Positions 1 through 64,000 of a stretch of 64,000 bases of DNA are shown here, in pieces. This stretch comes from a virus. The notes under the pieces were generated by a model, which searched no databases, was not told the origin of the DNA, and saw only the letters and a list, made by a program, of their open reading frames with translations. The translations under genes were made by a program, and so were the position numbers. How positions within the stretch are numbered: the stretch's first letter is position 1; each line of letters opens with the position of its first letter. Location of the stretch: IMG/VR virus record IMGVR_UViG_3300046542_000248, positions 62,001-126,000 of that record. One strand, given 5' to 3'.

Positions 1-2
1 AT

Positions 3-1646
3 TGGACCTCAATAAATAGCCCTCTTGGTAATAACTGGTCTGCTGTTTGTTATGGTAACGGTGTATTTGTAGCAGTTTCAAATGGTGGTGTAGGTACTAG
101 AGCCATGTCTTCTTTTGACGGGGTTACATGGACTCAACGAACAAGTGCTGCTGATAATAACTGGGCTGCTGTTTGTTACGGTAATGGATTATTTGTAGCT
201 GTTGCAGTTACTGGTACAGGTAACCGTGTTATGACTTCACCTGATGGTGCTACTTGGACAGCAAGAACTACACCTGCTGATAATAACTGGAGTTCAGTTT
301 GTTACGGTGCTGGTATATTTGTAGCTGTAGCAACTACAGGTACGGGTAATAGAGTTATGTCTTCTCCTGATGGAATTACTTGGACACTAAGAACAAGTGT
401 TGCTGATAATAGTTGGTATGATGTTTGTTATGGTAACGGTATATTTGTAGCTGTAGCATATAACGGCACCACAGCTAATCAAATTATGACTTCTCCTGAT
501 GGTATTACGTGGACAGCAAGAACTAGCCCATCAGCCAATGGATGGTATCTAACATGTTTTGGTAATGGTGTATTTGTATCTATTGGGGATACAGGCACTA
601 GTAAAATTATGATTTCTGTAGATGGAGTTAACTGGACCTTAAGAACTGGAACAATTACTGGTAGTTCTTGGATGGGCTTCGTCTATGGCAATGGTATATA
701 TTTAGTAGTCTCAGATAGTAATGGTAAATCAATGGTATCAAATGATGGTATAAAATGGTCGGCACCATATTTTACTGTAGATAATAACTGGAGTTCAGTA
801 TGCTACGGTAATGGATTATTTGTAGCTGTTGGTACATCAGGAACTGGAAATCGCGTTATGACGTCACCTGATGGTCTTACTTGGACTACTAGAACAAGCG
901 CTGCTGATAATAGCTGGACTGCTGTTTGTTATGGTAATGGATTATTTGTAGCGGTGGCGCTTAGTGGTACTGCATCGACTAGAGTTATGACCTCGCCTGA
1001 TGGTATTACTTGGACAACTAGATCAGCCACTACTACCAATTTTTGGAGATCTGTTTGTTATGGTAATGGATTATTTGTAGCCATCGCATCTACCGGTTCA
1101 CCTTCTCAAATTATGACTTCTCCTGATGGTATTACTTGGACCGCAAGAACTACTCCTCTTGATAACAGTTGGCAGTCAGTTTGTTATGGTGCTGGATTAT
1201 TTGTGGCTGTAGGACCCCTCACTGCATCAGTGGATGGAGTTATGACTTCTCCTGATGGAATTACTTGGACTGTTAGGTTAGGAGCTTCTCTTAATTACTG
1301 GTGTTCAGTTTGTTATGGTAATGGTTTATATGTAGCAGTTTCAAACGCTACTGGTACAGGTAATCGTGTAATGACTTCTTCTGATGGTCTTACTTGGACA
1401 TCAAGAACAACTCCTGCTGATAATGGATGGAATTCAGTATGCTACGGTAATGGATTATTTGTAGCTACTGCAATGTCAGGCACTGGTAATAGAGTAATGA
1501 CATCACCTGATGGTATCACTTGGACTTTACGAGCAACCAATGTTGATAATCAATGGGGTTCGGTATGTTATGGTATTGGCACATTTGTATCTGTATCAGT
1601 CGATGGTACAGGTAACAGAGCCATGACTTCATCTCTACAATATTAA
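3..1646 (+). CDS. Repeat-built tail fibre / receptor-binding protein, C-terminal part (5' end outside window)
   Basis: The reading frame is open from the first complete codon at position 3, so the gene begins before the window; the first in-window ATG (105) is internal. The protein is a tandem array of about twelve units of roughly 43 residues. Each unit carries a WxxVCYGNGxFVAV strand pair and an MTSPDGxTWT turn. Regular Trp/Gly repeats of this kind are typical of beta-propeller or beta-solenoid fibres. In a phage next to other structural genes this suggests a tail fibre or adsorption protein; that role is inference. It ends in Gln-Tyr, as does the next gene, and a 14-bp-stem terminator follows. 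The neighbouring gene at 1761 is a paralogue built from the same unit. Confidence 0.75.
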   Translation, partial: WTSINSPLGNNWSAVCYGNGVFVAVSNGGVGTRAMSSFDGVTWTQRTSAADNNWAAVCYGNGLFVAVAVTGTGNRVMTSPDGATWTARTTPADNNWSSVCYGAGIFVAVATTGTGNRVMSSPDGITWTLRTSVADNSWYDVCYGNGIFVAVAYNGTTANQIMTSPDGITWTARTSPSANGWYLTCFGNGVFVSIGDTGTSKIMISVDGVNWTLRTGTITGSSWMGFVYGNGIYLVVSDSNGKSMVSNDGIKWSAPYFTVDNNWSSVCYGNGLFVAVGTSGTGNRVMTSPDGLTWTTRTSAADNSWTAVCYGNGLFVAVALSGTASTRVMTSPDGITWTTRSATTTNFWRSVCYGNGLFVAIASTGSPSQIMTSPDGITWTARTTPLDNSWQSVCYGAGLFVAVGPLTASVDGVMTSPDGITWTVRLGASLNYWCSVCYGNGLYVAVSNATGTGNRVMTSSDGLTWTSRTTPADNGWNSVCYGNGLFVATAMSGTGNRVMTSPDGITWTLRATNVDNQWGSVCYGIGTFVSVSVDGTGNRAMTSSLQY

Positions 1647-1684
1647 AGATAGGAATTGTTAATATTTTCATGGCTAAACAATAA

Positions 1685-1719
1685 AAATAAGGAATGTGTT
1701 CTTTACACATTCCTTATTT
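1685..1719 (+). terminator. Intrinsic terminator after first fibre gene
   Basis: A 14-bp perfect stem (AAATAAGGAATGTG at 1685-1698 with its complement at 1706-1719) closes a 7-base loop, 40 bases after the stop codon. The outer AT pairs provide a short U-rich tail. Confidence 0.75.
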
Positions 1720-1760
1720 AATAAATTTATTAATTAAATTTATAATAGATGGGAGAGAAT

Positions 1761-7148: not shown

Positions 7149-7397
7149 TTAATACCGATCTCTTTTTGCATTTGCAGCCTTATTTATATTATCATATACT
7201 AATTGATCAGCAATTTTAAAAGGAATATATAGATATGCATATACCCAAATCCATCCTTGAACTTCATCGAATATGAGAAATTGAGTTGATATATCTCTAT
7301 TACTATCTACATTTCTAATAGAATATACATCAATACGGACTGGAATAGATGTAGAATCTGCATCAGGTTTTAATGCTACTTGGAATATGCTACTCAT
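7149..7397 (-). CDS. Hypothetical early protein, 82 aa
   Basis: Not recognised. It is the last gene of a three-gene minus-strand unit (7779 to 7149) and overlaps its upstream neighbour by ATGA, which suggests translational coupling. The protein has a Trp/Tyr-rich hydrophobic centre (WIWVYAYLYIP) and a basic C-terminus (ANAKRDRY). A terminator follows eight bases later. The early-type promoter at 7821-7831 serves the unit, so a host-takeover role is plausible but not shown. Confidence 0.6.
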   Translation of the reverse strand: MSSIFQVALKPDADSTSIPVRIDVYSIRNVDSNRDISTQFLIFDEVQGWIWVYAYLYIPFKIADQLVYDNINKAANAKRDRY

Positions 7398-7687
7398 ACG
7401 AATAACATCTTTTCTTGAATATATTTAAGCTTTCGTACAGATAAAGATTCCATAACAAATTCTGACGGATGATAGTACGTACCGAATAGGAAATGTTTAT
7501 ATTGCTTGAACCATTCTTCAGCCTTTTGAATAGTTTCAAATTTCATGCAGTTATGATCAGACCATCCCCAAACTGGATCTCCGCTACCATAACTACCAGT
7601 ATCCATAGCAGCAAATCGCATAGTTGGCTTTTCTTCACCAGTTACATCTTTGCGACCTTTAATCATGATTACGTATTGATGTTTCAT
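7394..7687 (-). CDS. Hypothetical early protein, 97 aa
   Basis: Not recognised. It starts at 7687 with GGAGCTGAT as ribosome binding site. Aromatic residues are frequent (VWGWSDHN, EEWFKQYKHF, TYYHPSEF), giving a compact mixed alpha/beta look with no catalytic motif. It is the middle gene of the small early operon, overlapping the 82-residue gene by four bases. Confidence 0.6.
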   Translation of the reverse strand: MKHQYVIMIKGRKDVTGEEKPTMRFAAMDTGSYGSGDPVWGWSDHNCMKFETIQKAEEWFKQYKHFLFGTYYHPSEFVMESLSVRKLKYIQEKMLFV

Positions 7688-7811: not shown

Positions 7812-7831
7812 TTACATGTAAATAATATATA
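7812..7831 (-). promoter_or_regulatory. Early-type promoter with adjacent palindrome
   Basis: On the minus strand TATATATTATT (7821-7831) is followed at once by the 10-bp palindrome TTACATGTAA (7812-7821). The same composite occurs at 10906-10925 and 11969-11988. It drives the 7779-7149 unit. Confidence 0.65.
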
Positions 7832-7901: not shown

Positions 7902-10049
7902 TTAATCACGTTCTTTAAGATACTCTAAAGTACCTAGTTGCGAATCAACCAAAGTCTGATTTTCTTTACGCTCAACCCTCGTGTAATTACCTTGCCAGTC
8001 CATTTCAAACGCATTAACATTATCACTCAATGCTCTCATTAAGTAATCATTAATTTCTTCCTTGGTATTATCACTAACTTCAAACATTAGCTCAAGGCGT
8101 CTGTCAAGATTTCTTGTCATCATATCAGACGAAGTGATAAAGATTGACTCTTGACTTGGGTCATTATTGCAACCAAATTTCAGAATACGACTGTGTTCAA
8201 GGAATCTTCCTACGATTGATTTCACCGTAATATTTTCAGAATATCCTACAACACCTGGGATCAATGAGCATGCTCCACGGCAGATGATCTCAATTACTAC
8301 ACCTGCATTAGATGCCTCGTATAGTTTATTGACTAGTCCATGATCACTAAGGTTATTTACTTTTATTGCAATATAACCATTATCTCCATTGACAATTTGA
8401 TTATCAATCTTTTGATACAGGAATTGTCTTGTCATTACTGGAGAGATCTTGATGTGATTCAGTTGAATACTTTCAGAAATGAATCCACCTGTAAGCATAT
8501 TGAAGATTGTACTCACATCTTGGCAGATCTTTCTATTGGAAGTGAAGTAACTAAAATCTGTATAGATCTTAGCATTCTTTTCAGAATAGTTTCCAGTTCC
8601 AATGTGTACAAATTGCTGCGGATCACCATCTTTCAATCTAAACACATGCATCATTTTTGCATGCGTCTTAATATGTTCATAACCATATACCACAATGGCA
8701 CCAGCTCGTTTAAGTTTCTCAGCCCATTCAATATTTGTCTCTTCATCAAACCGAGCTTTAATCTCCATTACAACTACTACGTTCTTTCCGTTCTGTGCAG
8801 CGTGTAATAGATATTCAAGAATCTTAGATTCATTACCCGAACGATACAACGTCTGTTTGATAGAGATTACATGTGGATCAAAACATGCTTCCGCCACGAA
8901 TCTTAATACAGTATCGTTAAAGCTTTCATACGGATGATGAACTAGAATGTCTTGCTTACTAATAGCGTTAAGCATAGACTTATTGGATTTGTAAGTCTTA
9001 AACGGTTTAATAGGACTAAAGTCTGGATACTTTAATTCTGGAGCTTTAGTCTCAGAATAGATTTGCATCATATCTGACATTTTCAAACGAGACATTGAAT
9101 GAAACATAAACTTCTTTGAAATATCCAAAGAGTCTTTAAGCATGTTCAGTATTTTCTTTCTTGGATTGCCCCAGATATCTACACGAATTGTTTCATTGTA
9201 TAGAATCCGACTTCTCACATGAGATATCATAGATTCTACATAGTTTGATTCGTGGAATGCGATATTGTTATCAATGCTTGAATCACCATCCCGTAGTATA
9301 CGGAACGCAGTAATATCGTAATAAACGATACCTGGATATAGGTTTTTCAGGTTGTCAATGATAATATCTTCAATGAAATGCCATTGCTTAGTAGCAATAT
9401 CATCAGTCTTATCATTGAATAGAACCATTCGATCCAGATGTGGCGGAATTTCAATTAAACCAATTTTCTCATTATCATCACCAGTATTAAGAATCAGTGC
9501 GATATAGATTGCAAATGGTTTAAGGTGTGGAAGTGGTCTTGTAGTGTCAATAATTAACGGAGTTAACGAAGGGAAGATATTCTTAAAGAAGTACTTCTCT
9601 TTCTTTGCTTCCATTACTGGATCTCTTTCGAGATTCATATTTAAATCACCAGTATCAAGATCTAATACTGGTCCGTGGATATTGATATAATTCATCATTA
9701 ATTTCAGCTTTATGATATCATAAAGTCTGTCGATCTCATTTAACATTGTCTTGCCTGTTTTTAAGATCTCGCTAAGGCTAATATCACCACCATGCTGATC
9801 CGGATTGAAAGCTTCAGTTTCTACAAATGATGCTTCTTGACCTTTAAGTCTTGCAGCAACTCGAATTGTAAAGAACTCATCAAGATTAGAATTTGCAATA
9901 GCTAGAAACTTAACTCTTTCTAATAGCGGAGTATTGTCATCAGAAACTAACTCCATTACTCTCTCATTAAACTTAATCCAAGATAGTTCACGATCCATAT
10001 AAATCAGTTGATCAGTGTTTTCTTTCATCGTAATCATCAAGTCAGTCAT
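7902..10049 (-). CDS. ppk: Polyphosphate kinase 1 (PPK1)
   Basis: 715 residues, the normal length of bacterial PPK1. The family makes inorganic polyphosphate from ATP, reversibly, through a phosphohistidine. The N-terminal block YMDRELSWIKFNERVMEL is the classic PPK1 opening, followed by ANSNLDEFFTIRVA. The catalytic histidine lies in THAKMMHV (about residue 460). The block HIGTGNYSEKNAKIYTDF follows at about 487, and the second conserved histidine is in FLEHSRI (about 615). All four are intact, so the enzyme should be active. The start at 10049 has AGGAGG seven bases upstream, an early-type promoter lies at 10087, and a terminator follows. No exopolyphosphatase is nearby. A phage-borne ppk is unusual; possible roles are phosphate or nucleotide-energy storage, or stress signalling. 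Confidence 0.95.
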   Translation of the reverse strand: MTDLMITMKENTDQLIYMDRELSWIKFNERVMELVSDDNTPLLERVKFLAIANSNLDEFFTIRVAARLKGQEASFVETEAFNPDQHGGDISLSEILKTGKTMLNEIDRLYDIIKLKLMMNYINIHGPVLDLDTGDLNMNLERDPVMEAKKEKYFFKNIFPSLTPLIIDTTRPLPHLKPFAIYIALILNTGDDNEKIGLIEIPPHLDRMVLFNDKTDDIATKQWHFIEDIIIDNLKNLYPGIVYYDITAFRILRDGDSSIDNNIAFHESNYVESMISHVRSRILYNETIRVDIWGNPRKKILNMLKDSLDISKKFMFHSMSRLKMSDMMQIYSETKAPELKYPDFSPIKPFKTYKSNKSMLNAISKQDILVHHPYESFNDTVLRFVAEACFDPHVISIKQTLYRSGNESKILEYLLHAAQNGKNVVVVMEIKARFDEETNIEWAEKLKRAGAIVVYGYEHIKTHAKMMHVFRLKDGDPQQFVHIGTGNYSEKNAKIYTDFSYFTSNRKICQDVSTIFNMLTGGFISESIQLNHIKISPVMTRQFLYQKIDNQIVNGDNGYIAIKVNNLSDHGLVNKLYEASNAGVVIEIICRGACSLIPGVVGYSENITVKSIVGRFLEHSRILKFGCNNDPSQESIFITSSDMMTRNLDRRLELMFEVSDNTKEEINDYLMRALSDNVNAFEMDWQGNYTRVERKENQTLVDSQLGTLEYLKERD

Positions 10050-10086: not shown

Positions 10087-10097
10087 AATAATATATA
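10087..10097 (-). promoter_or_regulatory. Early-type promoter of ppk
   Basis: TATATATTATT on the minus strand, 38 bases before the ppk start codon. Unlike three neighbours it lacks the TTACATGTAA palindrome. Confidence 0.6.
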
Positions 10098-10124: not shown

Positions 10125-10155
10125 TGAAAAAATAAAAGATGAGTTTTACCTCATC
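10125..10155 (-). terminator. Weak terminator overlapping the stop of the 237-aa gene
   Basis: A 6-bp stem GATGAG/CTCATC (10138-10155), followed on the minus strand by a T-rich run opposite AAAAAATAAAA. The stem covers the stop codon. Confidence 0.5.
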
Positions 10156-10864
10156 CATTAAATACAGCACTGCGATCGTTGAATATTGCTGAATAGTTCC
10201 AATCATCACGCATTCTCTTAATGATAAGACAGGCGAATATCATCGGATCAGTAGGTAATGAAAGACCAAATATTCCCATCGGCATATTAACTTTATAATC
10301 AATTTCTTTTATCACAGCTTCAATATCTGCTTCAGGTAATTGTAAGATTTTACCTATACATTTTTTAATTACGTTATCTCTACATTGATTAATAATCTCA
10401 TTAATTCTAGCTTGATCGTCAGCTACATTTGTTACCATGTTTAAACACGCCCCTAAAGTATGATTAGTGATAGACACAGCATTAGCAATAATATCTGCTA
10501 CCCAATATATAGATTGGATGTGATATTCTGGTCTATTAACATTAACTCTATTTACAAAATCATTATAATCTTTGACGGATCTATCAACACCCTTACTCTT
10601 AGTATCAACTAAAAACATTGGCTGTTCAGATACATCGGGAGTAACTACAACAATTTTTTCAACTTCAGCATTATAGCGTATCTCAGAAGGAAAGAATGTA
10701 TCACTTGATTTAAACGCTAGAACTTTTCCAGAGTTGGTTACTGCAAGTATATCTAATTCATGTACCAAATCTCTACCTGGTCTGAAATTGTGGGTATAGA
10801 ATTTACAATCGCCAGTTTTGATTCTTTCAACAATTTCTTCAAAATTGTTAACAGTATCTGTCAT
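10151..10864 (-). CDS. Hypothetical early protein, 237 aa
   Basis: Not recognised with confidence. The N-terminal 60 residues contain HELDILAVTNSGKVLAFKSS, which loosely resembles the Asp-strand-Lys layout of PD-(D/E)XK nucleases (D, then xxK), but the second acidic residue is replaced by Phe, so catalysis is doubtful. The C-terminal half looks helical. The early-type promoter at 10915-10925 with the TTACATGTAA palindrome precedes it. It belongs to the block of minus-strand early genes around ppk. Confidence 0.55.
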   Translation of the reverse strand: MTDTVNNFEEIVERIKTGDCKFYTHNFRPGRDLVHELDILAVTNSGKVLAFKSSDTFFPSEIRYNAEVEKIVVVTPDVSEQPMFLVDTKSKGVDRSVKDYNDFVNRVNVNRPEYHIQSIYWVADIIANAVSITNHTLGACLNMVTNVADDQARINEIINQCRDNVIKKCIGKILQLPEADIEAVIKEIDYKVNMPMGIFGLSLPTDPMIFACLIIKRMRDDWNYSAIFNDRSAVFNG

Positions 10865-10905: not shown

Positions 10906-10925
10906 TTACATGTAAATAATATATA
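10906..10925 (-). promoter_or_regulatory. Early-type promoter with adjacent palindrome
   Basis: TATATATTATT (10915-10925, minus strand) joined to TTACATGTAA (10906-10915), 42 bases before the start at 10864. Confidence 0.65.
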
Positions 10926-11006
10926 TTCAATTACAGTTATACTTACAGTAGAAATTTAAAACAAACTATTGTAAGAAAAATACTCCCTTGAAAGGAATGA
11001 TGTTAA

Positions 11007-11378
11007 ATGTTTGATAACCTGTCTGAATTTTGGATTGCTGTCATTCTAGTACTTGGCGCAATCGTTGCTACTGGACGCTGGATTGTTTCTAAAACTACTG
11101 GTAAGGAACTTGTTTCTGGGGATTCTGATATCCTTGGAAGTCTTCGTTCCAAAATTGTAAAAGGTATTTCCAGTAATACTTATCTTATCGAGCTGGAGAA
11201 AAAAGAAGGTCGTCAAGCTGTACGCGATGAGATTGAAGTGCAAATCAATGAATTCATTGGTTCTGCCACAGCACTTAGTACATTGGAAAAAGATCTTTTA
11301 ATCTCATTGGATAAAGGTCAATTAATTCAGCATATCGAGAATGAACTTGTTAGACTTAAGATTTTGGCTGGAACATAG
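11007..11378 (+). CDS. Membrane-anchored protein with helical tail, 123 aa
   Basis: A single hydrophobic segment at about residues 8-26 is followed by a charged helical region. The AAAGGA site nine to ten bases upstream supports the ATG at 11007. The layout (one N-terminal membrane segment, then about 95 soluble residues) is seen in LLH-type holins and in other small phage membrane proteins, and sequence alone does not decide between them. A near match to the late promoter (AACAAACTATTG, 10960-10971) lies upstream. It is isolated between minus-strand early genes and ends at a bidirectional terminator. Confidence 0.55.
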   Translation: MFDNLSEFWIAVILVLGAIVATGRWIVSKTTGKELVSGDSDILGSLRSKIVKGISSNTYLIELEKKEGRQAVRDEIEVQINEFIGSATALSTLEKDLLISLDKGQLIQHIENELVRLKILAGT

Positions 11379-11968: not shown

Positions 11969-11988
11969 TTACATGTAAATAATATATA
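11969..11988 (-). promoter_or_regulatory. Early-type promoter with adjacent palindrome
   Basis: TATATATTATT (11978-11988, minus strand) joined to TTACATGTAA (11969-11978), before the 168-residue gene. The flanks are nearly identical to the copy at 10906-10925. Confidence 0.65.
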
Positions 11989-11998: not shown

Positions 11999-12322
11999 TT
12001 ATTTACCGCGTTCTTTAGGATTAGTTCTTAAATGTAAATCAACCCATGCTACAAGTAGTGGAGATTTAAATTCAATATAGTTATTTTCGAATTCAACCAA
12101 ATCAGATGGTACATTAAATCGCCCAACAAGACCACCTAACAAATCAGTCAACAACTCTTGACTGATTAGTTTCGTACCAATAGTAGAAACAATATGTCTA
12201 TCAGGTGCTTGATCATATTTACGCTCACCTTTTAAATAAGATAATTCCTCGTTGTAAACATTGATCATTGGATCGGATTCCATCCTACAAAGATCTTCAA
12301 TATAGCTTAAATGCTTATCCAT
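11999..12322 (-). CDS. Hypothetical early protein, 107 aa
   Basis: Not recognised. A small protein, mildly acidic in its first half, with conserved-looking hydrophobic spacing and a C-terminal VDLHLRTNPKERGK. Start at 12322 with AGGAGGA nine bases upstream. The early-type promoter at 12362-12372 precedes it. It is first in a run of four single-gene minus-strand early units. Confidence 0.6.
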   Translation of the reverse strand: MDKHLSYIEDLCRMESDPMINVYNEELSYLKGERKYDQAPDRHIVSTIGTKLISQELLTDLLGGLVGRFNVPSDLVEFENNYIEFKSPLLVAWVDLHLRTNPKERGK

Positions 12323-12361: not shown

Positions 12362-12372
12362 AATAATATATA
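12362..12372 (-). promoter_or_regulatory. Early-type promoter
   Basis: TATATATTATT on the minus strand, 40 bases before the start at 12322. It is divergent from the GC-rich RNA candidate. Confidence 0.6.
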
Positions 12373-13541: not shown

Positions 13542-13553
13542 AACACATACATA
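13542..13553 (+). promoter_or_regulatory. Late-type promoter AACA-N6-TA
   Basis: AACACATACATA, a full match, 38 bases before the ATG at 13591. Confidence 0.6.
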
Positions 13554-14433: not shown

Positions 14434-14444
14434 TATATATTATT
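14434..14444 (+). promoter_or_regulatory. Early-type promoter
   Basis: TATATATTATT, 38 bases before the ATG at 14483. Confidence 0.65.
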
Positions 14445-15092: not shown

Positions 15093-15103
15093 TATATATT
15101 ATT
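15093..15103 (+). promoter_or_regulatory. Early-type promoter
   Basis: TATATATTATT, 67 bases before the ATG at 15171. Confidence 0.6.
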
Positions 15104-18580: not shown

Positions 18581-18592
18581 TATTTGAATGTT
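18581..18592 (-). promoter_or_regulatory. Late-type promoter AACA-N6-TA
   Basis: AACATTCAAATA on the minus strand, 31 bases before the start at 18550. Confidence 0.6.
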
Positions 18593-18606: not shown

Positions 18607-18618
18607 AACAGCTTTATA
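18607..18618 (+). promoter_or_regulatory. Late-type promoter AACA-N6-TA
   Basis: AACAGCTTTATA, 34 bases before the ATG at 18652. It forms a divergent pair with the site at 18581. Confidence 0.6.
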
Positions 18619-20461: not shown

Positions 20462-20473
20462 AACAAATTGATA
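20462..20473 (+). promoter_or_regulatory. Late-type promoter AACA-N6-TA
   Basis: AACAAATTGATA, a full match 31 bases before the ATG at 20504. Confidence 0.6.
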
Positions 20474-22200: not shown

Positions 22201-23188
22201 TTATATTTCCTCCTTTTTCATCACCATATAAAGCAAAGCTCATATAAATATTTTTGAATATTAACAGATCACGCAAATGACCAAGTTCTTGATTACCATT
22301 AGCATATCTAACAATATCATCTAAGCTAACAGATATCACAGCGTCGCATATAGTAACAGCAGGCAGAATATCCAATACTTCTGGATTAGAGTCCATATAA
22401 GAATGGCAAGTAACTTGAGTAAATTCATTAATAGCAGCAATTGACGATTTGAATTCAATCTGTACTCCACTATTAGTGTATTTATCATCTTTAGAAATAC
22501 CATTTAAGTTCCGAATAATATTCACTCTAGAAGAACCATGATCAAGGGCAACTGCACTAAAATCATAGAACTTATCTTGATAGAAATTATAATTATTCTG
22601 AATCACAAAAATACTTCTGATCCAGCGTAGTTGTACAATCTCATTAAGAGAAATCAGATATCTGACAGAGATTCTAAATAGTTTATTTAGTTCTTCTCGA
22701 TCAAGATCTGTCTTATTAAGAATATCCATATATGAATTATTCATAGTATAAATATCATCTAGAATATTCATATAATTATGAGAGTAATCTAAGAAGTGAA
22801 TAGATTTCTTAGTCTTTTTAATAAAGTCTTTCTCTAACTCATCCCGATCAAAAATGTTAGGAATAACTTTTTTAATAGTATCCTGTAGGGCTTCTGAGAA
22901 TTCAGATTTAGTTTTATGCTTATAAGCAATATGACAAGCAGTATACATACCCATACTGATATAATAGTACTCTTGAGTCTCCACAATTGTCATTGCAGAT
23001 AAATCATAATTGAATAGAGTACTCATCTGAATCTCATCCTTTTCAAACTGGATGATTATATTAATAACCTCGAAGTATGATGGCAAATGAAGATAAATCT
23101 TTTCATCTGATTCATACTGTTTTAATAACGTTTTAGTGATGTGATTGACGATGAGATGGAAGTCATCAGGAATATATATTATTCTCAT
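22187..23188 (-). CDS. Hypothetical protein, 333 aa
   Basis: Not recognised. Rich in Ile, Tyr and Asp with long predicted helices and no visible catalytic motif. It starts at 23188 with GGAGGG eleven bases upstream and overlaps the 198-residue gene. An early-like AATATATTATT motif at 23247-23257 (minus strand) could be its promoter. Function unknown. Confidence 0.55.
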   Translation of the reverse strand: MRIIYIPDDFHLIVNHITKTLLKQYESDEKIYLHLPSYFEVINIIIQFEKDEIQMSTLFNYDLSAMTIVETQEYYYISMGMYTACHIAYKHKTKSEFSEALQDTIKKVIPNIFDRDELEKDFIKKTKKSIHFLDYSHNYMNILDDIYTMNNSYMDILNKTDLDREELNKLFRISVRYLISLNEIVQLRWIRSIFVIQNNYNFYQDKFYDFSAVALDHGSSRVNIIRNLNGISKDDKYTNSGVQIEFKSSIAAINEFTQVTCHSYMDSNPEVLDILPAVTICDAVISVSLDDIVRYANGNQELGHLRDLLIFKNIYMSFALYGDEKGGNINDRV

Positions 23189-23281: not shown

Positions 23282-23292
23282 TATATATTATT
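23282..23292 (+). promoter_or_regulatory. Early-type promoter
   Basis: TATATATTATT, 45 bases before the ATG at 23338. Confidence 0.6.
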
Positions 23293-24767: not shown

Positions 24768-24808
24768 GAGAGAGGGTGTAAAATCCCTCTCTCACTTCTT
24801 TTTTTTTT
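24768..24808. terminator. Terminator between convergent genes
   Basis: Stem GAGAGAGGG/CCCTCTCTC (24768-24776 and 24785-24793), then ACTTCTTTTTTTTTTATG on the plus strand. Confidence 0.8.
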
Positions 24809-27800
24809 ATGCTTTTTCACCATAAACTTCTTCATAGAGATTTCTAACGTTATCTTTCATCCCGATAAGAATCGAATTTATAAGTCCAGTTTTAACTGCA
24901 CTAAACGTCATCCGAGCACCAAGACTGATTACTCCCAAATAAGCATCAAGCTTATCATTAGGATTAGATAATAGATATGGTTCTTGACCTTCGTCCCAAG
25001 TATCGCAAGCAATTGCTTTACAAGCAATAAATGCTGCAAGCTTATCTCCGATGGAGAATGTGTCTTTATACTTGATATAGATTTCGATTAAGATACCACC
25101 TTGAGTAACTTTAACACCTTTGACTTTACCACTAAGACCCGGATTGATATAATAAATCTCGGTAAGTGGTACGTCTACATCATTAGGGTTTACATGAGCA
25201 GAAATTTCTTTCATTCTATTCTTATTTTCATTCTCATGATGAGTAATGATATCTTGAATAGATTTATTATATTCTTCTTTAGGAGCAGTATAGTAGATTT
25301 TAATATCTTCCACCACGCCATTGTACTTAGATACAATGGTATTTCTTGCGGCTTCTTCAATATCAAAACCTTCCTCTTCTTCAGCAGTGTTTAAGAATTT
25401 ATTAACAAGGTCATCGTCATGTGATGTATCAAAGATCATGAGAGCCTCATTAACCTCAACCTTATCACCTTTCTTAACCATTTTAGAAATATTAGCATTA
25501 GCTCCAAGTACGATATCTTTCTTAATAACGATATGGGAACTGAGCTTATTAGAGAGTTTAGTAGAAATCATTGTAGAATCCTCAAATGTTTTAGAGGAGT
25601 ATTTTAAGCCAACTCGCGCCATAGGACCATGCATGAATACTGAATCTCCAGACCATTTATCTAGAGCAAAGAATTCAGGGTTATGAGCAATGATTCTACC
25701 AGCTTTAAATACTTCACCCTCTTTTACAAGAGAATCAAGTTTATTGGATACGAAGAATCCAGCACCAGAGTTCTTACCGATTTCTGGTTGAAGACTGATT
25801 ACATCTTTGGTTCCATCACTATATCCTAATACAAGTAGATTATTTTTCTTATCATTCTTCAGAACTTTACCATCTTTCTTAGCTTTGAATACGAATGTAT
25901 CTCCGATAAGATGAGGTAGAGCTTTTTCAAAGCCTGTATATACTAGATTCCGATCAGAACCTACACAAGCAAGAGTATGCCGAGATTGAGCTGATGCCAT
26001 TGCAACACGTTCTGGTTCATCTGAAGTAACCGAGAATGGAAGTGCCGCTTCCGCACCAGATACTAAGTTAGGAGTAGAAAGCTTATTAAGATCTTCTTTC
26101 TTATCAGTTACATCAATATAACCACGGGATGATACAATCTTGGCATCTACTGTAAGAGTACGAGCAATACCAATTGCACCCGAGATTGGAGATGCTTGAG
26201 AAATAACACCAGCCATAGATGGATGGAATGAACGTTTCGACAAGTTAAAGGATCTGTCTTCATTCATACCTGCTGGACCTTTAAAGGTTGTACTTCTCAT
26301 TAAGTCGATAGTATAAAGAGGGTTAAGATCACTATAATCTTTAGTAACTTGGTTTGTAAGAATCTCGATTAGAACAGCATCTTTCTTAGCCGAGAATTTC
26401 TTAACCATAGATTTATCAGCAGATAGACGATAATCTTCATAAGCTTTAGATACTACTTTATACAAGAATGCACTAACCATTTCGTTAGAACGAACACGGT
26501 GCATCCTCATATCACCCTCATCGGTGTAGGAGTTATCTTCAAGCAAAGAGTTTGCATAAAGGAATACATCTACGAAGTTAGTAGGTAAATTGAAATCACG
26601 AAGGATTTCTTCGGTAATAGGATCAATGAACAACTGCTCAAAGTTTTCGAATGCATAACCGATATTACTACGACCAAATAAAGTGTCGAAGATTTCATGG
26701 TATACATCTTTAGCTAAGAATTGTTGGATATCATACATCTTAGTAGGAACTTCCATAAATCCATTCATAAGCAACGTATTGCTTAATGGATATACGTCAT
26801 ATACAAGCCAAGCATCAGAGAACTCAAGTACTTCCTCTGTACCTTTCTTATATTTAGGTGTATATGGAGAATCTTGCTTAGAGATAATTCTGTAATTGAT
26901 TTTAGCACGTTTCATAAGATTCAATAGACCTTCAAGATAAGATAGAAGAAGTACAACTGGCACTTTCCTATTCATAATGAGAGATCTAGAATACATATAC
27001 TTTCTACCTTTAGGGACGGTTTTAAATAGATCTTTAAATGATTCTTCATATACAGAGATTTCCTGAGCAAGATAGTCAATAAGATCTTTGTCAAATGCTG
27101 ATGCTTGCACGATTTTATTAGCAGCAGTATCGAAGTAAATAACTTCTTTATTATTCTTGATAGCAAGAGGAATAATAGAAGAAGTTCTTTCAGGAGGAGC
27201 AATTTTCAATTCTTCCATTTTCTTTCTGATATCAGCTTGAGAGAAATAGATAACTACAGTAGGAAGAGTGATCTTTCTATATTTAGAAGCAAGTTCATCA
27301 TACTCGATAGTGGTCATATAGGATTTATTACCCTTAGCAGAACCAAGTTCGAATTTGACTTTATTATTAGACAGTACAGCGGATTTCTTATAGAACTCAA
27401 TTACTTTAGGGGAAATATTCTGTCCGAATCTAGTGATAAAGGACTTTTTATAGTTAGTAGCAATTTGTACAGTATCAGGACCAGTTTTAGTAATTGGAAG
27501 AGGAATGATTTGGTTAATCATGATCTTCTTATTACCACCGATCTTCATGAACCGCCCATTTGTAAATTTAGGAAGATTAATAGTAAAGTTATGGCGTTTA
27601 CCCTTCTCATCCTCAAAGACGAATGTAAACTCTTCAACTTTATTTAATGGATCACTAGCATCCTTAACTCTAGTTTCGATTAGGTATAATGGTTTATCTT
27701 TATATTGAAGATTCGTCATCATAGTAACGATATCTTTTCTATAATGATTATTCAAATATGCCTCATCAAAGTTAGGGAATGTCATTTTCTTCAATGCTGG

Positions 27801-28961
27801 ATTAATTACATCAATAGGTAGCTCAACAGGTTCAATCTTATTAGAAGCAGCTCTTGCTTGAATATCCTCGATGGTCTTATCATCAATCTTAAGACCCTTC
27901 ATATCTTCGATTAATTTCAGTTCTCTAGCAAGTCTTGGCTTGGACTTAGGCATAGTCGTCTTTAATTCGGTATTAGCCTTTTCAAGTTCAAGCTCCAAGA
28001 AAGTCACAGGAGAATCGGAGATAGTAGGATTTTTGTCTTGCATATGAATACCCATTTTATCTGCAGACTTTTCGATAAGAGTATTCATTCCCTCTTCATC
28101 AAGTTCACCATCAGAGATATGAGTATTGATTTTATCATGAAGTGCTGTACGATTTTTAGCTTCTTGTAATTCATTGGATTCATCTTCACTAGCCACAGAT
28201 TCAACATCTTTTCTAGTGTGATGAAGTTTAGTCCAAAGAGTTTTAAATTCCTTATGAGTATCTACATCAAAGTTTTCAGGGAGTAATAAGAAAACTTGAT
28301 TCTCATAAGTAAAGTAGAATTTCCATCCACTGAAGTTAGATACAAAATAGGTAGGATCATCTTTAAGCTTATTGAAGAATAGAGAAATAAAGTTCCCAGT
28401 TTCTCTCACATTAAAGATAGATAGATCCTTGATATCTCTAACCCAGTTATCAATAGGAATCATAATACACTTATTGTGATAAGCAGCTTGGTCAATTTTA
28501 GAAGTAATAGAATCTTTAAACAATCTAAAGTATTCATTAACTCTAACCATACCCATATGAACATCTTTAAGACCAAAGAATTCAGTATTCAAATAGCTGA
28601 CATCATGGATATAGTTTCTACCCTTCATATTTGCAGAGTTGAGAACTAAACTAATGTCAGGAAAAATAGGTTGAAGCTTTTCATCGAACGTTTTTCGCAG
28701 ATCAGTATCTTGAATACGATATCTGATTACAGTATTGTAGATTTTGTAGTTAAATAGTTTCTCGTGGAAGTAGAATCTAAGATGTCTAATCTCCCACATT
28801 TGATCTTTAAAGAATTTCAGAGTAGCCTCATCATTCTTTACGATCGGAATAAATACAGAGCCTTTATCTTGCTCTTTTACCATTAAAGGCAATCTAAACT
28901 TGGAATCACTTCTATAAAGTAGGTTTGGTTTCACAAACTTCATATCTATCAAAATTATCAT
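24807..28961 (-). CDS. Phage RNA polymerase beta subunit, unsplit
   Basis: 1384 residues. Regions of bacterial RpoB appear in order: RFMKIGGNKKIMINQI (about 468), matching the FIINGxERVIVSQ block; MRMHRVRSNEMV (about 815), matching NRRVRSVGELL; FKGPAGMNEDRSF and HPSMAGVISQASP (about 892-932), the rifampicin-region fork; RVAMASAQSRHTL (about 985), matching RxLMGSNMQRQAV; and GDKLAAFIACK (about 1303), where the two active-site lysines keep their eight-residue spacing. The first 400 residues are phage-specific. The protein is one piece, whereas phiKZ/AR9-type beta is usually split in two. Residues at the E. coli H526 and S531 positions are changed (Leu, Thr by eye), so rifampicin insensitivity is expected. 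A full late promoter precedes it. The ATG at 28961 is close to AAAGGA; a TTG at 28952 is an alternative start. Confidence 0.9.
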   Translation of the reverse strand: MIILIDMKFVKPNLLYRSDSKFRLPLMVKEQDKGSVFIPIVKNDEATLKFFKDQMWEIRHLRFYFHEKLFNYKIYNTVIRYRIQDTDLRKTFDEKLQPIFPDISLVLNSANMKGRNYIHDVSYLNTEFFGLKDVHMGMVRVNEYFRLFKDSITSKIDQAAYHNKCIMIPIDNWVRDIKDLSIFNVRETGNFISLFFNKLKDDPTYFVSNFSGWKFYFTYENQVFLLLPENFDVDTHKEFKTLWTKLHHTRKDVESVASEDESNELQEAKNRTALHDKINTHISDGELDEEGMNTLIEKSADKMGIHMQDKNPTISDSPVTFLELELEKANTELKTTMPKSKPRLARELKLIEDMKGLKIDDKTIEDIQARAASNKIEPVELPIDVINPALKKMTFPNFDEAYLNNHYRKDIVTMMTNLQYKDKPLYLIETRVKDASDPLNKVEEFTFVFEDEKGKRHNFTINLPKFTNGRFMKIGGNKKIMINQIIPLPITKTGPDTVQIATNYKKSFITRFGQNISPKVIEFYKKSAVLSNNKVKFELGSAKGNKSYMTTIEYDELASKYRKITLPTVVIYFSQADIRKKMEELKIAPPERTSSIIPLAIKNNKEVIYFDTAANKIVQASAFDKDLIDYLAQEISVYEESFKDLFKTVPKGRKYMYSRSLIMNRKVPVVLLLSYLEGLLNLMKRAKINYRIISKQDSPYTPKYKKGTEEVLEFSDAWLVYDVYPLSNTLLMNGFMEVPTKMYDIQQFLAKDVYHEIFDTLFGRSNIGYAFENFEQLFIDPITEEILRDFNLPTNFVDVFLYANSLLEDNSYTDEGDMRMHRVRSNEMVSAFLYKVVSKAYEDYRLSADKSMVKKFSAKKDAVLIEILTNQVTKDYSDLNPLYTIDLMRSTTFKGPAGMNEDRSFNLSKRSFHPSMAGVISQASPISGAIGIARTLTVDAKIVSSRGYIDVTDKKEDLNKLSTPNLVSGAEAALPFSVTSDEPERVAMASAQSRHTLACVGSDRNLVYTGFEKALPHLIGDTFVFKAKKDGKVLKNDKKNNLLVLGYSDGTKDVISLQPEIGKNSGAGFFVSNKLDSLVKEGEVFKAGRIIAHNPEFFALDKWSGDSVFMHGPMARVGLKYSSKTFEDSTMISTKLSNKLSSHIVIKKDIVLGANANISKMVKKGDKVEVNEALMIFDTSHDDDLVNKFLNTAEEEEGFDIEEAARNTIVSKYNGVVEDIKIYYTAPKEEYNKSIQDIITHHENENKNRMKEISAHVNPNDVDVPLTEIYYINPGLSGKVKGVKVTQGGILIEIYIKYKDTFSIGDKLAAFIACKAIACDTWDEGQEPYLLSNPNDKLDAYLGVISLGARMTFSAVKTGLINSILIGMKDNVRNLYEEVYGEKA

Positions 28962-28984: not shown

Positions 28985-28996
28985 TATTCTGGTGTT
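28985..28996 (-). promoter_or_regulatory. Late-type promoter of RNAP beta
   Basis: AACACCAGAATA on the minus strand, a full AACA-N6-TA match 24 bases before the start at 28961. Confidence 0.6.
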
Positions 28997-29434: not shown

Positions 29435-29445
29435 TATATATTATT
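29435..29445 (+). promoter_or_regulatory. Early-type promoter
   Basis: TATATATTATT, 52 bases before the ATG at 29498. Confidence 0.65.
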
Positions 29446-30484: not shown

Positions 30485-30496
30485 AACACTTTAATA
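30485..30496 (+). promoter_or_regulatory. Late-type promoter of the tape measure gene
   Basis: AACACTTTAATA, a full match 23 bases before the ATG at 30520. Confidence 0.6.
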
Positions 30497-40191: not shown

Positions 40192-40203
40192 AACCTCTAA
40201 TTA
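40192..40203 (+). promoter_or_regulatory. Late-type promoter variant AACC-N6-TA
   Basis: AACCTCTAATTA, 28 bases before the ATG at 40231. Confidence 0.4.
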
Positions 40204-42013: not shown

Positions 42014-42024
42014 TATATATTATT
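42014..42024 (+). promoter_or_regulatory. Early-type promoter
   Basis: TATATATTATT, 40 bases before the TTG start at 42065. Confidence 0.65.
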
Positions 42025-43419: not shown

Positions 43420-43430
43420 TATATATTATT
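43420..43430 (+). promoter_or_regulatory. Early-type promoter
   Basis: TATATATTATT, 52 bases before the ATG at 43483. Confidence 0.65.
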
Positions 43431-45083: not shown

Positions 45084-45095
45084 AACATACAGGTA
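45084..45095 (+). promoter_or_regulatory. Late-type promoter AACA-N6-TA
   Basis: AACATACAGGTA, a full match 38 bases before the ATG at 45134. Confidence 0.6.
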
Positions 45096-47480: not shown

Positions 47481-47491
47481 TATATATTATT
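47481..47491 (+). promoter_or_regulatory. Early-type promoter
   Basis: TATATATTATT, 80 bases before the ATG at 47572, the longest leader of this class here. Confidence 0.6.
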
Positions 47492-47571
47492 ATATTGTGT
47501 ATAAACAATAAATTGGTATCCGTTGTATGCACCTATAAACTATATTATAACTCTGAAGGAGAGAATTACTC

Positions 47572-49769: not shown

Positions 49770-50969
49770 TTAACCGAATAAATCATCCACACTAATATCA
49801 TACATATAAACCTTCTTAACATGGAAGGCTTTAAGACGTTTCTGCATGAGTGTAGCACCGATCTTAGTTGATGCAAGACCGATCATCTGAATATTCATCT
49901 TATATGGATGAGTACCAAGACATTTGCTACATACTTTAGGTGGTTCATATTTACAATACATTGGACTATATTGCTTGATACGTTTACCAATGTACTTGTC
50001 AATATTTTCAGGAAGTAACGTAATCATTTTACCATTATCATCAATGATATTGCTATATAAGAACTCATTCCTAAAGTAAGGATCAAGTAGGATATCAAGA
50101 TAATCTTTAGTCCCACAATCTGTACCTTCTTTAGCAGCTTCAACGTCTTGAAGTGTTGCAATAAATTTCTTTACTGCATAACCGCCTTGTGCAACTCCTA
50201 ATGCCCGTGAGTATACGCCAGATACAGCACTACCAGCAAATGTTGGATACTCTTCTTTTGAGATACCATCATTATAGTTTGATTTAAGAACTTTCCATGT
50301 ATCTGTAAGGGTATCTAGAATAGGACCCTTCATCAGTAACATAGTTTTCATAGAGTTATCATAATCTAACTTAGCACCACTGGCAAAGTTATCCCACTCC
50401 GAATATTGAGAGAAATGCTTCTTACCAAAGGCAACAAGTTCCTCTTCAATCTTAGCACCGATACTTACATCACCAGCAGCAATTTCTTTCTCATACTTCT
50501 TGAATAATTCTTCACGAAGCTTCTTAAATTCAGGAGGAAGAACGAGTAGTCTAGTAGTGAGTGATGGGTTCAATAACTCTGCTAAGTCTCCACCTCCAAG
50601 CCACTCCAGCATATCAATTAGGAAGAAATATTTGTCCTGATCAATCTTATCATCAAACCGAGCTTGAGAAACATAAGTGTATAATTTACTCAAGTTACTA
50701 TTAGTGATAGGTACATTAATATAACCAGTCACATCGGAAAAATGCTTATCAGTTACAAGCTTATTGAATAGATATAAACCGATATTGGTAAAGCCAGCGA
50801 TATTTTTAGAGCAGGAATTTTCAGGAAGATGGAAATAATCTGTAACCTGAAATCTAACATTTGGATTCTTTAAAGTCCTAGCAAAGAAAGACTTCATCTT
50901 CTTCATAGTAATATCTTCGAATTTTAACGAGAGAAGTTCTTCGACTTCATCCTTGTTTAAAAGTCTCAA
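49770..50969 (-). CDS. Phage RNA polymerase beta-prime fragment (bridge helix, zinc site, trigger-loop N-half)
   Basis: About 399 residues from TTG 50969 (AGAGGTG six bases upstream; GTG at 50978 lies on that site). The segment GISKEEYPTFAGSAVSGVYSR, then ALGVAQGGYAVKKFIATLQD (about 239-280) matches the bridge helix region of RpoC (EYFISTHGARKGLADTAL, SGYLTRRLVDVAQD). It is followed by TDCGT and YSPMYCKYEPPKVCSKCLG, which supply the four cysteines of the second zinc site. The end, TLMQKRLKAFHVKKV, matches the first trigger-loop helix (TQLTMRTFHIGG) with its histidine kept, and the protein stops 15 residues later. So the polypeptide ends inside the trigger loop. The NADFDGD part and the C-terminal part must come from other genes. 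Late-like site AACC-N6-AA at 50999. Confidence 0.85.
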   Translation of the reverse strand: MRLLNKDEVEELLSLKFEDITMKKMKSFFARTLKNPNVRFQVTDYFHLPENSCSKNIAGFTNIGLYLFNKLVTDKHFSDVTGYINVPITNSNLSKLYTYVSQARFDDKIDQDKYFFLIDMLEWLGGGDLAELLNPSLTTRLLVLPPEFKKLREELFKKYEKEIAAGDVSIGAKIEEELVAFGKKHFSQYSEWDNFASGAKLDYDNSMKTMLLMKGPILDTLTDTWKVLKSNYNDGISKEEYPTFAGSAVSGVYSRALGVAQGGYAVKKFIATLQDVEAAKEGTDCGTKDYLDILLDPYFRNEFLYSNIIDDNGKMITLLPENIDKYIGKRIKQYSPMYCKYEPPKVCSKCLGTHPYKMNIQMIGLASTKIGATLMQKRLKAFHVKKVYMYDISVDDLFG

Positions 50970-54510: not shown

Positions 54511-54532
54511 TTCTACACCTCTTTTCATATTA

Positions 54533-54544
54533 AACAGAAAGATA
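54533..54544 (+). promoter_or_regulatory. Late-type promoter AACA-N6-TA
   Basis: AACAGAAAGATA, a full match 56 bases before the ATG at 54600. Confidence 0.6.
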
Positions 54545-54550: not shown

Positions 54551-54562
54551 TATTATGCTGTT
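54551..54562 (-). promoter_or_regulatory. Late-type promoter AACA-N6-TA
   Basis: AACAGCATAATA on the minus strand, 41 bases before the start at 54510. Forms an interlocked divergent pair with 54533. Confidence 0.6.
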
Positions 54563-54599: not shown

Positions 54600-55232
54600 A
54601 TGGCAGAGGAATTTAAGTTTAAAGGTAAGAATAATCCAAAGATTAAATCTACTCTTGATGGCACAGTTCTTAAATACTATTTAAATAAAGATGACCTTAG
54701 CGATTACGAGCTATCGGTTAATTTTATTAATGGTGTAAAAACAGCGGTGAGGAAAGATCCTCGATATAATAATTATAAGAGTCATCTCTATTCAATAGGT
54801 CTTGACAGATGTCAAGTTCATTCTGGTATTACAGCAGAAATGGCACCTATTGAAGAACATCATGGCCCAATCTTTGACTTATTCACGGTATGCTTGATCG
54901 TAACTGATCACATGCTTAATGAAGGTGAAGAAATTACCACTATGATGGTTGCTAATAAAGTATTAGAAGCTCATGAGAAACACTGGATTCAAGTTGTCAT
55001 GTTATGTGAAACTTGCCACGAAGCTGCTGAAAATGATGCTCACTTCTTACCATTTGAAATGGGCTTCGGTCAAATTGACAAGTTCATTACAAAATTCAAA
55101 CGTGGATTCCAAGATGAGCAATATAATCTCATCAAGGAATATCTGCAAGAATCCAAAAAACATGGATACGTTGATAATGGTATTCATAAGATTATGGATA
55201 AGGTTAAGAAATACGTTAAAGAAAACGATTAA
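54600..55232 (+). CDS. HNH-like protein with CETCH motif
   Basis: 210 residues. The block EEHHGPIFDLFTVCLIV, a helix VANKVLEAHEKHWIQVVML and then CETCHEAAE follows the HNH fold: paired His, strand, then a Cys-x-x-Cys-His knuckle with one further Cys upstream (RCQVHSG). The 13591 protein shares the order HHxP, LHxxxxVxLxPL and TxH but lacks the cysteines. Endonucleases of this fold act in packaging or genome processing in many phages. Full late promoter, AGGAGGAG site, shared terminator at 55241. Confidence 0.6.
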   Translation: MAEEFKFKGKNNPKIKSTLDGTVLKYYLNKDDLSDYELSVNFINGVKTAVRKDPRYNNYKSHLYSIGLDRCQVHSGITAEMAPIEEHHGPIFDLFTVCLIVTDHMLNEGEEITTMMVANKVLEAHEKHWIQVVMLCETCHEAAENDAHFLPFEMGFGQIDKFITKFKRGFQDEQYNLIKEYLQESKKHGYVDNGIHKIMDKVKKYVKEND

Positions 55233-57105: not shown

Positions 57106-57116
57106 TATATATTATT
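57106..57116 (+). promoter_or_regulatory. Early-type promoter
   Basis: TATATATTATT, only 17 bases before the ATG at 57134, so the leader is very short. Confidence 0.55.
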
Positions 57117-57133: not shown

Positions 57134-58312
57134 ATGAACTATCGTGACAGGTTAAAGGTTGGTGTACATACAAGTGACATACACCTAGGTGTGAGATTGA
57201 TCACCGCTGAAGAGTTTAAGTATCAATTATATGAGCAATTTATTAAACCCGTATCAGAAATGATGATTCTAGATTTTATTACAGTGAATGGAGATGTATC
57301 TGATTTACCTTTACCATTTAATTCAAAACTGGCTGAAGTGTACCTATGGTTTTTCGATTCAATAGTAAAAATTGCTAAAGAAAAGAATGCCGCTATTATA
57401 GTTATTAAAGGGACGTTATCCCATGAGTGTGATCACTTAAATAACGTCAAGTTCTACAAGAATGACAAGGATTTAGAGATTCATTTTGTTGAAGAACCTA
57501 CTGTACTTGAAGTAAAAGGTTTAATGATGTATGGATTACCTGATATTTATATTAAAGATCCAGAGGAGGAAAAGAAATTATATGACTATCCTGATAATTA
57601 TTTTGATTACATTCTTGGACACGGCTCTGTTACCGAGACTCAATTTATAAAGCAGGATACTGAGCATTCTATTTCTAAGAATATTATTTACAATAGTAAG
57701 GAACTGATTAGGATGAGTAAAGGACCAATCTTACTTGGTCACATTCATCAGAATCTCAGATACAGAGGCAGGATTTATTATATCAACTCTTTCACTAGAT
57801 TCTCTCATAGTGAAGAAGAACCAAAGGGTTGGATGGTCACTGCTTATGAAACTGAAACTTCGAAGTTCATAGCTGAACGAATCGAGAATACATTAGCCTT
57901 TAAATTCAATACTTTCTATATGAAACATAGTGAGTTTGAAAAGACTGAGGTTAATGATATCGTAAAAAGAATTGATAAGTACATCTCTAAGAATAATACT
58001 GATAGACTGTGTTTGGATATCCAATATGCGAACACTGCTGTTAACGCTGCAAAGATTCAAATTCTTAGGAATTATTATGGCAATCATAAAGTAGTAAATA
58101 AGCTGAAGTTCAAATCTCTATCTGTTAAGGAAGCAGAGATTATGGTTGAAGCAGAAACTCAAGAAGAGAATAAGAAAGAGTATCTCAGAGATAAGTCTTT
58201 GAAGTTTAGTGAAAAACTGCAACGATTTATAAATGAGGAATACCAAGAGTTTATTCCCCTAGATAAGCTTGAGTTGTTGATTATGAGTGATGAATATCTC
58301 ACTCGGAATTGA
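57134..58312 (+). CDS. SbcD/Mre11-like (T4 gp47-type) nuclease subunit
   Basis: 392 residues from ATG 57134, five bases after AGGTGG (a GTG at 57125 lies on that site). Metallophosphatase motifs occur in order: HTSDIHLG (motif I, Asp-x-His), NGDVSD (II), a KGTLSHECDH segment (III, where GNHD is degenerate), LGHGSV and GHIHQN (the His pair). This is the nuclease partner of SbcC/gp46 ATPases that open and trim DNA ends. The gp46-like partner is not in this window. Early-type promoter; the helicase gene follows 53 bases later. Confidence 0.75.
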   Translation: MNYRDRLKVGVHTSDIHLGVRLITAEEFKYQLYEQFIKPVSEMMILDFITVNGDVSDLPLPFNSKLAEVYLWFFDSIVKIAKEKNAAIIVIKGTLSHECDHLNNVKFYKNDKDLEIHFVEEPTVLEVKGLMMYGLPDIYIKDPEEEKKLYDYPDNYFDYILGHGSVTETQFIKQDTEHSISKNIIYNSKELIRMSKGPILLGHIHQNLRYRGRIYYINSFTRFSHSEEEPKGWMVTAYETETSKFIAERIENTLAFKFNTFYMKHSEFEKTEVNDIVKRIDKYISKNNTDRLCLDIQYANTAVNAAKIQILRNYYGNHKVVNKLKFKSLSVKEAEIMVEAETQEENKKEYLRDKSLKFSEKLQRFINEEYQEFIPLDKLELLIMSDEYLTRN

Positions 58313-62887: not shown

Positions 62888-62891
62888 TGGA

Positions 62892-62902
62892 TATATATTA
62901 TT
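62892..62902 (+). promoter_or_regulatory. Early-type promoter
   Basis: TATATATTATT, 38-47 bases before the metalloprotease start. Confidence 0.6.
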
Positions 62903-62939
62903 ATAATGAGCGTTACAATAAAATAATAAGAAAGGGAGG

Positions 62940-63710
62940 TTGAATAATATAATCTCTATAAATAAATCTACTAGATATGGTAGCTTAGACTACTTTACAT
63001 TGAACTGCGTTGATGAGACTTTACAAATTTTAAAAGATGAGCTGATGGATCGGCTCGCGGTAACTATTTTACCAGTTAAAAAAGCTAGGTTTTTACAACA
63101 TTCTGGTGGAGCTTCCCATGATATAAATATCTTTGATAAAAATTATGATGGAACACGACCACCAAAGCTTAAAGAAGTTATTGCGGAGATAACTCTCTGT
63201 AATGATATTGAATCACTGATAGGAAAGAAGACTTGTACTAACAATTTTGAAAAACGATTCTTTGAGTTCATAGAATCACTAGGGGTTGAGATTAATGTAT
63301 ACTCAATATTCACAATATCCCTTCTTCATGAACTTGGACACTCCAACCTGATAAAACTATTCCTAGACCTCGGTATGGAAAAGGAATATGATAACCTATA
63401 TCATTTGGCTAAAGCCACTGTAATGGCAACTGGCTCTTATAAGCAAAATGAATTATGGGAAAAGACACATAAAATATCTCTAGGACAAACGGCAGACGTT
63501 CAAGAGAATTTTGCAGATGCATATGCTTTAAAGAACTTTCCAAGAGTTTGGAATGTTGTGAAGCATTATATACGCCCAGAATTAAAGAATAAAAGTACCA
63601 CGGCCATAGTTCGATACAACCAGAGATTTAATCTGGAAGATCGAAAGTATGTAAAGGTTGTGGGAGAAGATCGTGGTATGAGCAATCTATTCAAGGAGAT
63701 ATTCGGATGA
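62940..63710 (+). CDS. Zinc metalloprotease-like protein (HELGH), first of a tandem pair
   Basis: About 254-256 residues. The zinc helix LLHELGHSN (HExxH) lies at about residue 128 and a downstream acidic helix ENFADAYAL at about 190 could supply the third ligand, as in gluzincin-type peptidases. The middle is helical. The next gene is a paralogue starting four bases before this stop (ATGA overlap). The start is uncertain: TTG at 62940 touches the GGAGG site, while an ATA at 62949 has nine-base spacing and aligns exactly with the paralogue's first residue. Early-type promoter. A protease acting on host or head proteins is inferred; the substrate is unknown. Confidence 0.65.
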   Translation: MNNIISINKSTRYGSLDYFTLNCVDETLQILKDELMDRLAVTILPVKKARFLQHSGGASHDINIFDKNYDGTRPPKLKEVIAEITLCNDIESLIGKKTCTNNFEKRFFEFIESLGVEINVYSIFTISLLHELGHSNLIKLFLDLGMEKEYDNLYHLAKATVMATGSYKQNELWEKTHKISLGQTADVQENFADAYALKNFPRVWNVVKHYIRPELKNKSTTAIVRYNQRFNLEDRKYVKVVGEDRGMSNLFKEIFG

Positions 63711-64000
63711 TAAGTATAACAACCGAAAATATCAAATCAAGATACCAATTCTTTAGAACTGTTTGTATTGAGGAAACCCTTAAGTATTTAAAGGATAAAC
63801 TTCCTCATGAAACTAATGTTAATATTATCGCAGTATCTGATTACAATCACTTTATGGTAGAATCCACAGGTGGTGCTTTGTGTGATGCAAGATATAACAA
63901 AGATGTGTTAATATGTGACATCTTCATCTCTGATAATATTTATGGCTTTAATCAAATTTTCTACCCTGGAGAAACAGATAGAAGGGAAACCTTCTTAACA
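63707..64000 (+). CDS. Paralogue of the metalloprotease-like gene, N-terminal part (runs off window)
   Basis: 98 codons open to the window edge. The N-terminus (MISITTENIKSRYQFF, then ETLKYLKDKL) follows the upstream protein residue by residue in character (SINKSTRYGS, then ETLQILKDEL), and the ESTGGALCDARY block matches QHSGGASHDINI. The zinc motif, if present, lies beyond the window. Overlap with the upstream stop indicates coupled translation from the same early promoter. Confidence 0.65.
   Translation, partial: MISITTENIKSRYQFFRTVCIEETLKYLKDKLPHETNVNIIAVSDYNHFMVESTGGALCDARYNKDVLICDIFISDNIYGFNQIFYPGETDRRETFLT

Follow-up and report, generated by a model that had tools for sequence, protein, structure and literature searches.

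The virus genome in IMG/VR record IMGVR_UViG_3300046542_000248 (246,901 bp) is likely to be that of a jumbo phage with an AR9-type transcription program, in which two phage RNA polymerases (RNAPs) serve two promoter classes, and its gene content suggests that the DNA most likely contains thymine. The window analyzed here comprises the 64,000 nucleotides from positions 62001 to 126000 of the record, and coordinates refer to the window unless the record is specified. On the whole record, 246 genes were called with a simple codon-score caller; the start codons are therefore approximate. The virion RNAP (vRNAP) beta gene was closest to those of Listeria phage LPJP1, Staphylococcus phages SA1 and S6, phiR1-37, and PBS1 (∼31 to 33% identity), several of which are known uracil-DNA phages. 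Megablast yielded no match in the phage collection for the initial 25 kb of the window, and most window proteins had no match in Pfam.

The 11-mer TATATATTATT, which the original prediction had placed upstream of at least a dozen genes on both strands, was indeed found in 15 exact copies in the window (10 on the plus strand and 5 on the minus strand), upstream of 14 genes, with 14 of the copies in intergenic DNA (1.3 expected; P = 1e-14). In the complete record there were 44 copies, of which 43 were intergenic, mostly located 37 to 80 nt before a start codon, compared to 0.2 expected from shuffled upstream regions. When the flanking sequences were aligned, the core was preceded by AAA and followed by a G at position 16, counted from the core start, so that the sequence upstream of the genes reads AAATATATATTAT-N6-G. 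This is the early promoter recognized by the virion RNAP of AR9, in which the G is the mapped transcription start (PMC5312081).

On the minus strand, the exact 11-mer was present at 7821..7831, upstream of 7394-7687(-); at 10087..10097, upstream of the polyphosphate kinase gene at 7902-10049(-); at 10915..10925, upstream of 10151-10864(-); at 11978..11988, upstream of 11430-11936(-); and at 12362..12372, upstream of 11999-12283(-). Plus-strand cores at 14434..14444 and 15093..15103 preceded 14483-14860(+) and 15171-16037(+), respectively. The gene at 23338-23853(+) had two cores, at 23173..23183 and 23282..23292, and the former was the sole core that overlapped a called gene (the 5' end of 22187-23188(-)). 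The remaining plus-strand cores were at 29435..29445, upstream of 29498-29758(+); 42014..42024, upstream of 42077-42766(+), which is weakly similar to AR9 RNase H; 43420..43430, upstream of 43483-45051(+); 47481..47491, upstream of 47572-48363(+); 57106..57116, upstream of the SbcD-like gene at 57134-58312(+); and 62892..62902, upstream of 62940-63710(+). The polyphosphate kinase gene (PPK1), with its early site, is full length and matched four Pfam domains (E values down to 8e-67). Few phage records carry a PPK1 gene, and others were found in the relatives designated G001, G006, G043, and G009. Outside the window, a macro-domain protein is encoded near the ribonucleotide reductase genes (record 29820-30434(+)).

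The second motif, AACA-N6-TA, had 42 matches in the window, 15 of which were intergenic, compared to 3.6 expected (P = 9e-7). When G was also allowed at the last position (AACA-N6-T[AG]), 20 of the 68 matches were intergenic (5.8 expected). The number of window genes with a putative start 18 to 60 nt before the start codon was 9 for the TA form and 11 for the T[AG] form, with 0 to 3 and 0 to 4 genes, respectively, at control spacings; the earlier estimate of full AACA-N6-TA matches before at least ten genes was about right. In the 178 upstream regions of the record, AACA-Nk-T[AG] occurred 46 times at k = 6, compared to 3 to 20 times at the other values of k from 0 to 15 and ∼14 times in shuffled sequences. 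A motif-free scan ranked AACA at spacing 6 first of all tetramer and spacing pairs in the studied phage, as well as in AR9, phiR1-37, Fusobacterium phage JD-Fnp7 (Fnp7), and the relative G009. Among tetramers at spacing 6, AACA was first in LPJP1, G001, G006, and G043 and second in S6. The late promoter of AR9, recognized by its non-virion RNAP (nvRNAP) with gp226, is AACA-N6-T[A/G] (PMC5312081, PMC9209446), and AR9 served as the positive control for the spacing scan (83 compared to 16).

Late sites in the window were located on the plus strand at 10960..10971 (AACA-N6-TG; upstream of 11007-11378(+)), 13542..13553 (AACA-N6-TA; upstream of 13591-14304(+)), 18607..18618 (18652-19956(+)), 20462..20473 (20504-21562(+)), 30485..30496 (the tape-measure gene, 30520-40146(+)), 45084..45095 (45134-45928(+)), 47504..47515 (AACA-N6-TG; 47572-48363(+), the gene that also has an early site), and 54533..54544 (54600-55232(+)). 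Minus-strand sites were found at 18581..18592, upstream of 17963-18550(-); at 28985..28996, upstream of the virion RNAP beta-N subunit gene (24807..28943, minus strand), a homologue of AR9 g189; and at 54551..54562, upstream of the virion gene at 52288-54528(-). A relaxed site, AACC-N6-TA, was located at 40192..40203 on the plus strand, upstream of the virion gene at 40231-41943(+). The gene for a second vRNAP piece, a homologue of AR9 g264 (49770..50969, minus strand), had no strict late site directly upstream.

The late pattern is short and might simply reflect the composition of AT-rich intergenic DNA, and over the whole window the 68 matches to AACA-N6-T[AG] were in fact below the 109 expected by shuffling. 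However, whole-window shuffling proved misleading for the late motif, because the pattern is avoided inside genes, which masks an excess that is visible only between them. Measured against codon-preserving shuffles, AACA-N6-T[AG] was depleted inside genes of the studied phage on both the sense strand (97 compared to 185) and the antisense strand (48 compared to 120). General avoidance of AACA accounts for part of this depletion, but spacing 6 was the most depleted on both strands. Furthermore, late sites were present at the same distance in 24 of 34 orthologues in G001, 13 of 31 in G006, and 15 of 29 in G043, whereas four control spacings gave no orthologue matches in the two distant relatives, G006 and G043. 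With the upstream enrichment also restricted to spacing 6, a chance origin of the late motif is exceedingly improbable. The avoidance inside genes is a separate line of evidence from the upstream enrichment and suggests that the motif is recognized in vivo. The early motif raises a different question, as TATATATTATT looks like an extended −10 element and might be a sigma-70-like element that serves the host RNAP instead of the virion RNAP. That seems very unlikely, because an invariant 11-mer preceded by AAA and followed by G at a fixed N6 is exactly the AR9 vRNAP promoter, a complete vRNAP gene set is encoded, and the conserved early words vary between phages together with the vRNAP. Both motifs were enriched over shuffled sequence, the early one with 15 copies compared to 0.27 expected in the window and the late one in intergenic and upstream DNA.

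The late consensus of the studied phage appeared to be relaxed at two positions. When sites from the studied phage, G001, and G006 were pooled, positions −10 and −9 were fixed, G was in excess at −11 (19 compared to 6.5), and C or T was in excess at −8 (27 compared to 14.4 and 28 compared to 17.1, respectively). Orthologous late sites exchange letters at −11 and −8. Thus, the AACN and GACN variants noted in the original prediction are real but weaker than AACA. In the studied phage the −8 variants are better supported, because GACA occurs in its genes without depletion; with a weak excess and no avoidance of this kind, GACA cannot be considered a full equivalent of AACA and may be a minor promoter at most. 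No comparable GACA excess was detected in AR9, phiR1-37, or Fnp7. In another relative, G042, GACA-N6-T[AG] leads and is the main late form, with AACA enriched too. The commonest upstream 9-mer in G042 is TATACTATA, a different early-type word.

Split beta/beta' sets were found for both a virion and a non-virion RNAP. The vRNAP pieces are encoded by g016, g084, g099, and g123, the last assigned mainly by a PHROG match, and the nvRNAP pieces by g003, g133, g138, and g159, together with g201 (record 207245-208759), which encodes a gp226-type specificity subunit. The g201 product matched AR9 gp226 (E value, 1e-21) and also matched PDB entry 7s01 by sequence and by fold, and an early site is located 46 nt upstream of its gene. 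In six other genomes (G014, G020, G021, G027, G028, and G033), the gp226 homologue is in two pieces of the same orientation, up to ∼1.7 kb apart, an arrangement suggestive of a split gene or an inserted element, and G039 has two copies.

The genes behind the two motifs differed in function. Among genes that could be named through AR9, a strict late site was upstream of 12 of the 19 virion or vRNAP genes compared to 2 of the 20 replication or nvRNAP genes (P = 8e-4); within this nameable set, the expectation that the late motif precedes mostly virion-type genes holds. Early sites were upstream of none of the former and 5 of the latter (P = 0.047). Genes with late sites included those for the vRNAP beta-N subunit, tape measure, terminase, sheath, and prohead protease, and those with early sites included the genes for the gp226 homologue, one nvRNAP subunit, and DNA ligase. 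Eleven genes had an early site plus a strict or relaxed late site, and such paired sites are also found in the continuously expressed genes of AR9. These patterns suggest a program in which the injected virion RNAP initiates transcription of early genes from AAATATATATTAT-N6-G sites. Among the early genes is that for the gp226 homologue, which would supply the second polymerase with its specificity subunit. The non-virion RNAP would then initiate at AACA-N6-T[A/G] upstream of late genes, mainly those of the virion, presumably reading the template strand as in AR9.

The AR9 late promoter has an obligatory U at −10 that lies against gp226 Val206, and in the V206G mutant of gp226, T and U are equal at this position (PMC9209446). 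The residue of g201 aligned to Val206 is Gly233, in a gap-free alignment of DSGMW with DVVIW, and it begins a predicted helix (residues 232 to 240). Position 206 was Val in all cultured relatives aligned (AR9, BpSp, SA1, Machias, phiR1-37, LPJP1, and S6), Gly in G001 and G006, and Arg in G043. The studied phage thus has Gly in place of the Val by which AR9 excludes thymine, matching the change engineered in the AR9 mutant. In the pocket of the beta-N partner, AR9 K375 is kept and R363 is not, and several further pocket residues differ from those of AR9, which indicates that the pocket was rebuilt rather than simply opened. In AR9, V206G cures discrimination at −10 only, not at −11. Over the wider gp226 family, residue 206 was not associated with the presence of dUTPase or a ThyX-family protein (Fisher P = 0.30; no trend in ∼6 independent pairs), and the argument from Gly therefore relies on the AR9 mutant and not on this correlation.

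Two enzymes, a dCTP deaminase and a dTMP phosphatase, underlie the uracil DNA of PBS1 (PMC12697855). AR9 g221 and g151 fit these descriptions and have homologues in phiR1-37, LPJP1, and S6, but not in the studied phage, G001, G006, or G043. All four of the latter encode a dUTPase, with intact motifs in the studied phage, and three of the four encode a ThyX-family protein. Among 16 genomes searched, 9 had the deaminase and neither dUTPase nor ThyX, 5 had dUTPase and/or ThyX and no deaminase, and 2 had neither; no P value was attached to this pattern because the set consists of related genomes, some of them selected by us, and presence or absence is uncertain where contigs are incomplete. ThyA and UDG families were not detected in the genomes searched. 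The ThyX-family protein of the studied phage (record 177877-179073(+), outside the window; 398 amino acids) conserves the ThyX signature only at RHR (RHRTLHYNVFIPQ). Thymine is still likely, yet another 5-substituted base is possible with so degenerate a signature.

The preferred interpretation, which we consider likely, is an AR9-type program on thymine DNA. A bolder reading, somewhat more probable than not, is that the studied phage belongs to a branch of the AR9 promoter system that naturally uses thymine DNA, in which AACA-N6-T[A/G] is a family-wide motif that is not tied to uracil, a Val-to-Gly change opens the gate as engineered in AR9, dUTPase and ThyX replace the uracil-making genes, and −11 is relaxed. 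The same program might instead operate on uracil DNA, as found in AR9, with the template read as UUGU, the dUTPase and ThyX-family protein serving another purpose, and the uracil-making genes too diverged to detect. In its favor, AR9 has the identical late motif at the identical spacing, and the nearest RNAP relatives include uracil-DNA phages. However, the intact dUTPase motifs and ThyX-family gene, the lack in the studied phage of a dCTP deaminase (Dcd) family match and of homologues of the dTMP phosphatase (Dtm) and Ugi of AR9, and Gly rather than Val at position 206 make this improbable, and the uracil chemistry implied in the original prediction by UUGU on the template is disfavored by the nucleotide genes and Gly alike. 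Somewhat less improbable, though still doubtful, is that the diverged ThyX-family protein makes a different 5-substituted base, which takes the place of thymine in the DNA. The signature is degenerate after RHR in G001 and G043 as well as in the studied phage, and such a base would need an open gate too, but no hypermodification genes were found among the few neighbors scanned. If the thymine-DNA branch is real, an AR9-type motif does not need uracil. The uracil-only promoter of AR9 has been proposed as a means of keeping the phage polymerase off host DNA, and how host DNA is spared would then become a new question.

Comparison with other phages places this program with AR9 rather than phiKZ. 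The earlier description of an AR9/phiKZ-type program with two phage RNAPs stood with regard to the two promoter classes, the two multisubunit RNAPs, and the AR9 motifs and spacings, but its phiKZ half did not. Two multisubunit RNAPs are shared with phiKZ, and the gp226 homologue has distant structural similarity to phiKZ gp68 (8que; E value, 2e-7). However, the phiKZ early word TATATTAC was not enriched upstream of genes (2 observed compared to 2.0 expected), and phiKZ-type early promoters were accordingly rejected. The late promoters of phiKZ, which read TATG (PMC7598289), also differ from AACA-N6-T[A/G]. In Fnp7, the late pattern showed the strongest avoidance inside genes (sense, 13 compared to 124; antisense, 4 compared to 67; 17 compared to ∼191 on both strands) along with strong upstream enrichment, and a one-sequence search revealed no gp226 homologue. 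Spacing-specific avoidance inside genes is a cheap genome signature that could reveal the promoters of uncultured phages. phiR1-37 shares the late motif by the spacing scan (63 AACA-N6-T[AG] sites upstream of genes compared to 19), and differs from the studied phage in having uracil DNA and Val at position 206. RNA-seq of phiR1-37 reported no new conserved sequence or late consensus upstream of new starts (PMC4848604), and the scan provides a concrete late-promoter prediction for that phage. The early promoter matches that of AR9/PBS1 in its core, its AAA flank, the N6 spacing, and the position of the start G, differing in a nearly fixed T after the core and in the number of exact TATATATTATT copies (44 compared to 9 in AR9). 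The late promoter resembles that of AR9 in its tetramer, spacing, T at −1, A/G at +1, gp226-type subunit, and distance to the start codon. It differs in marked avoidance inside genes, which is weak in AR9, and in a consensus that is looser at −11 and −8, and it is accompanied by a thymine-type gene set (dUTPase and ThyX family) in place of the uracil-making genes of AR9.
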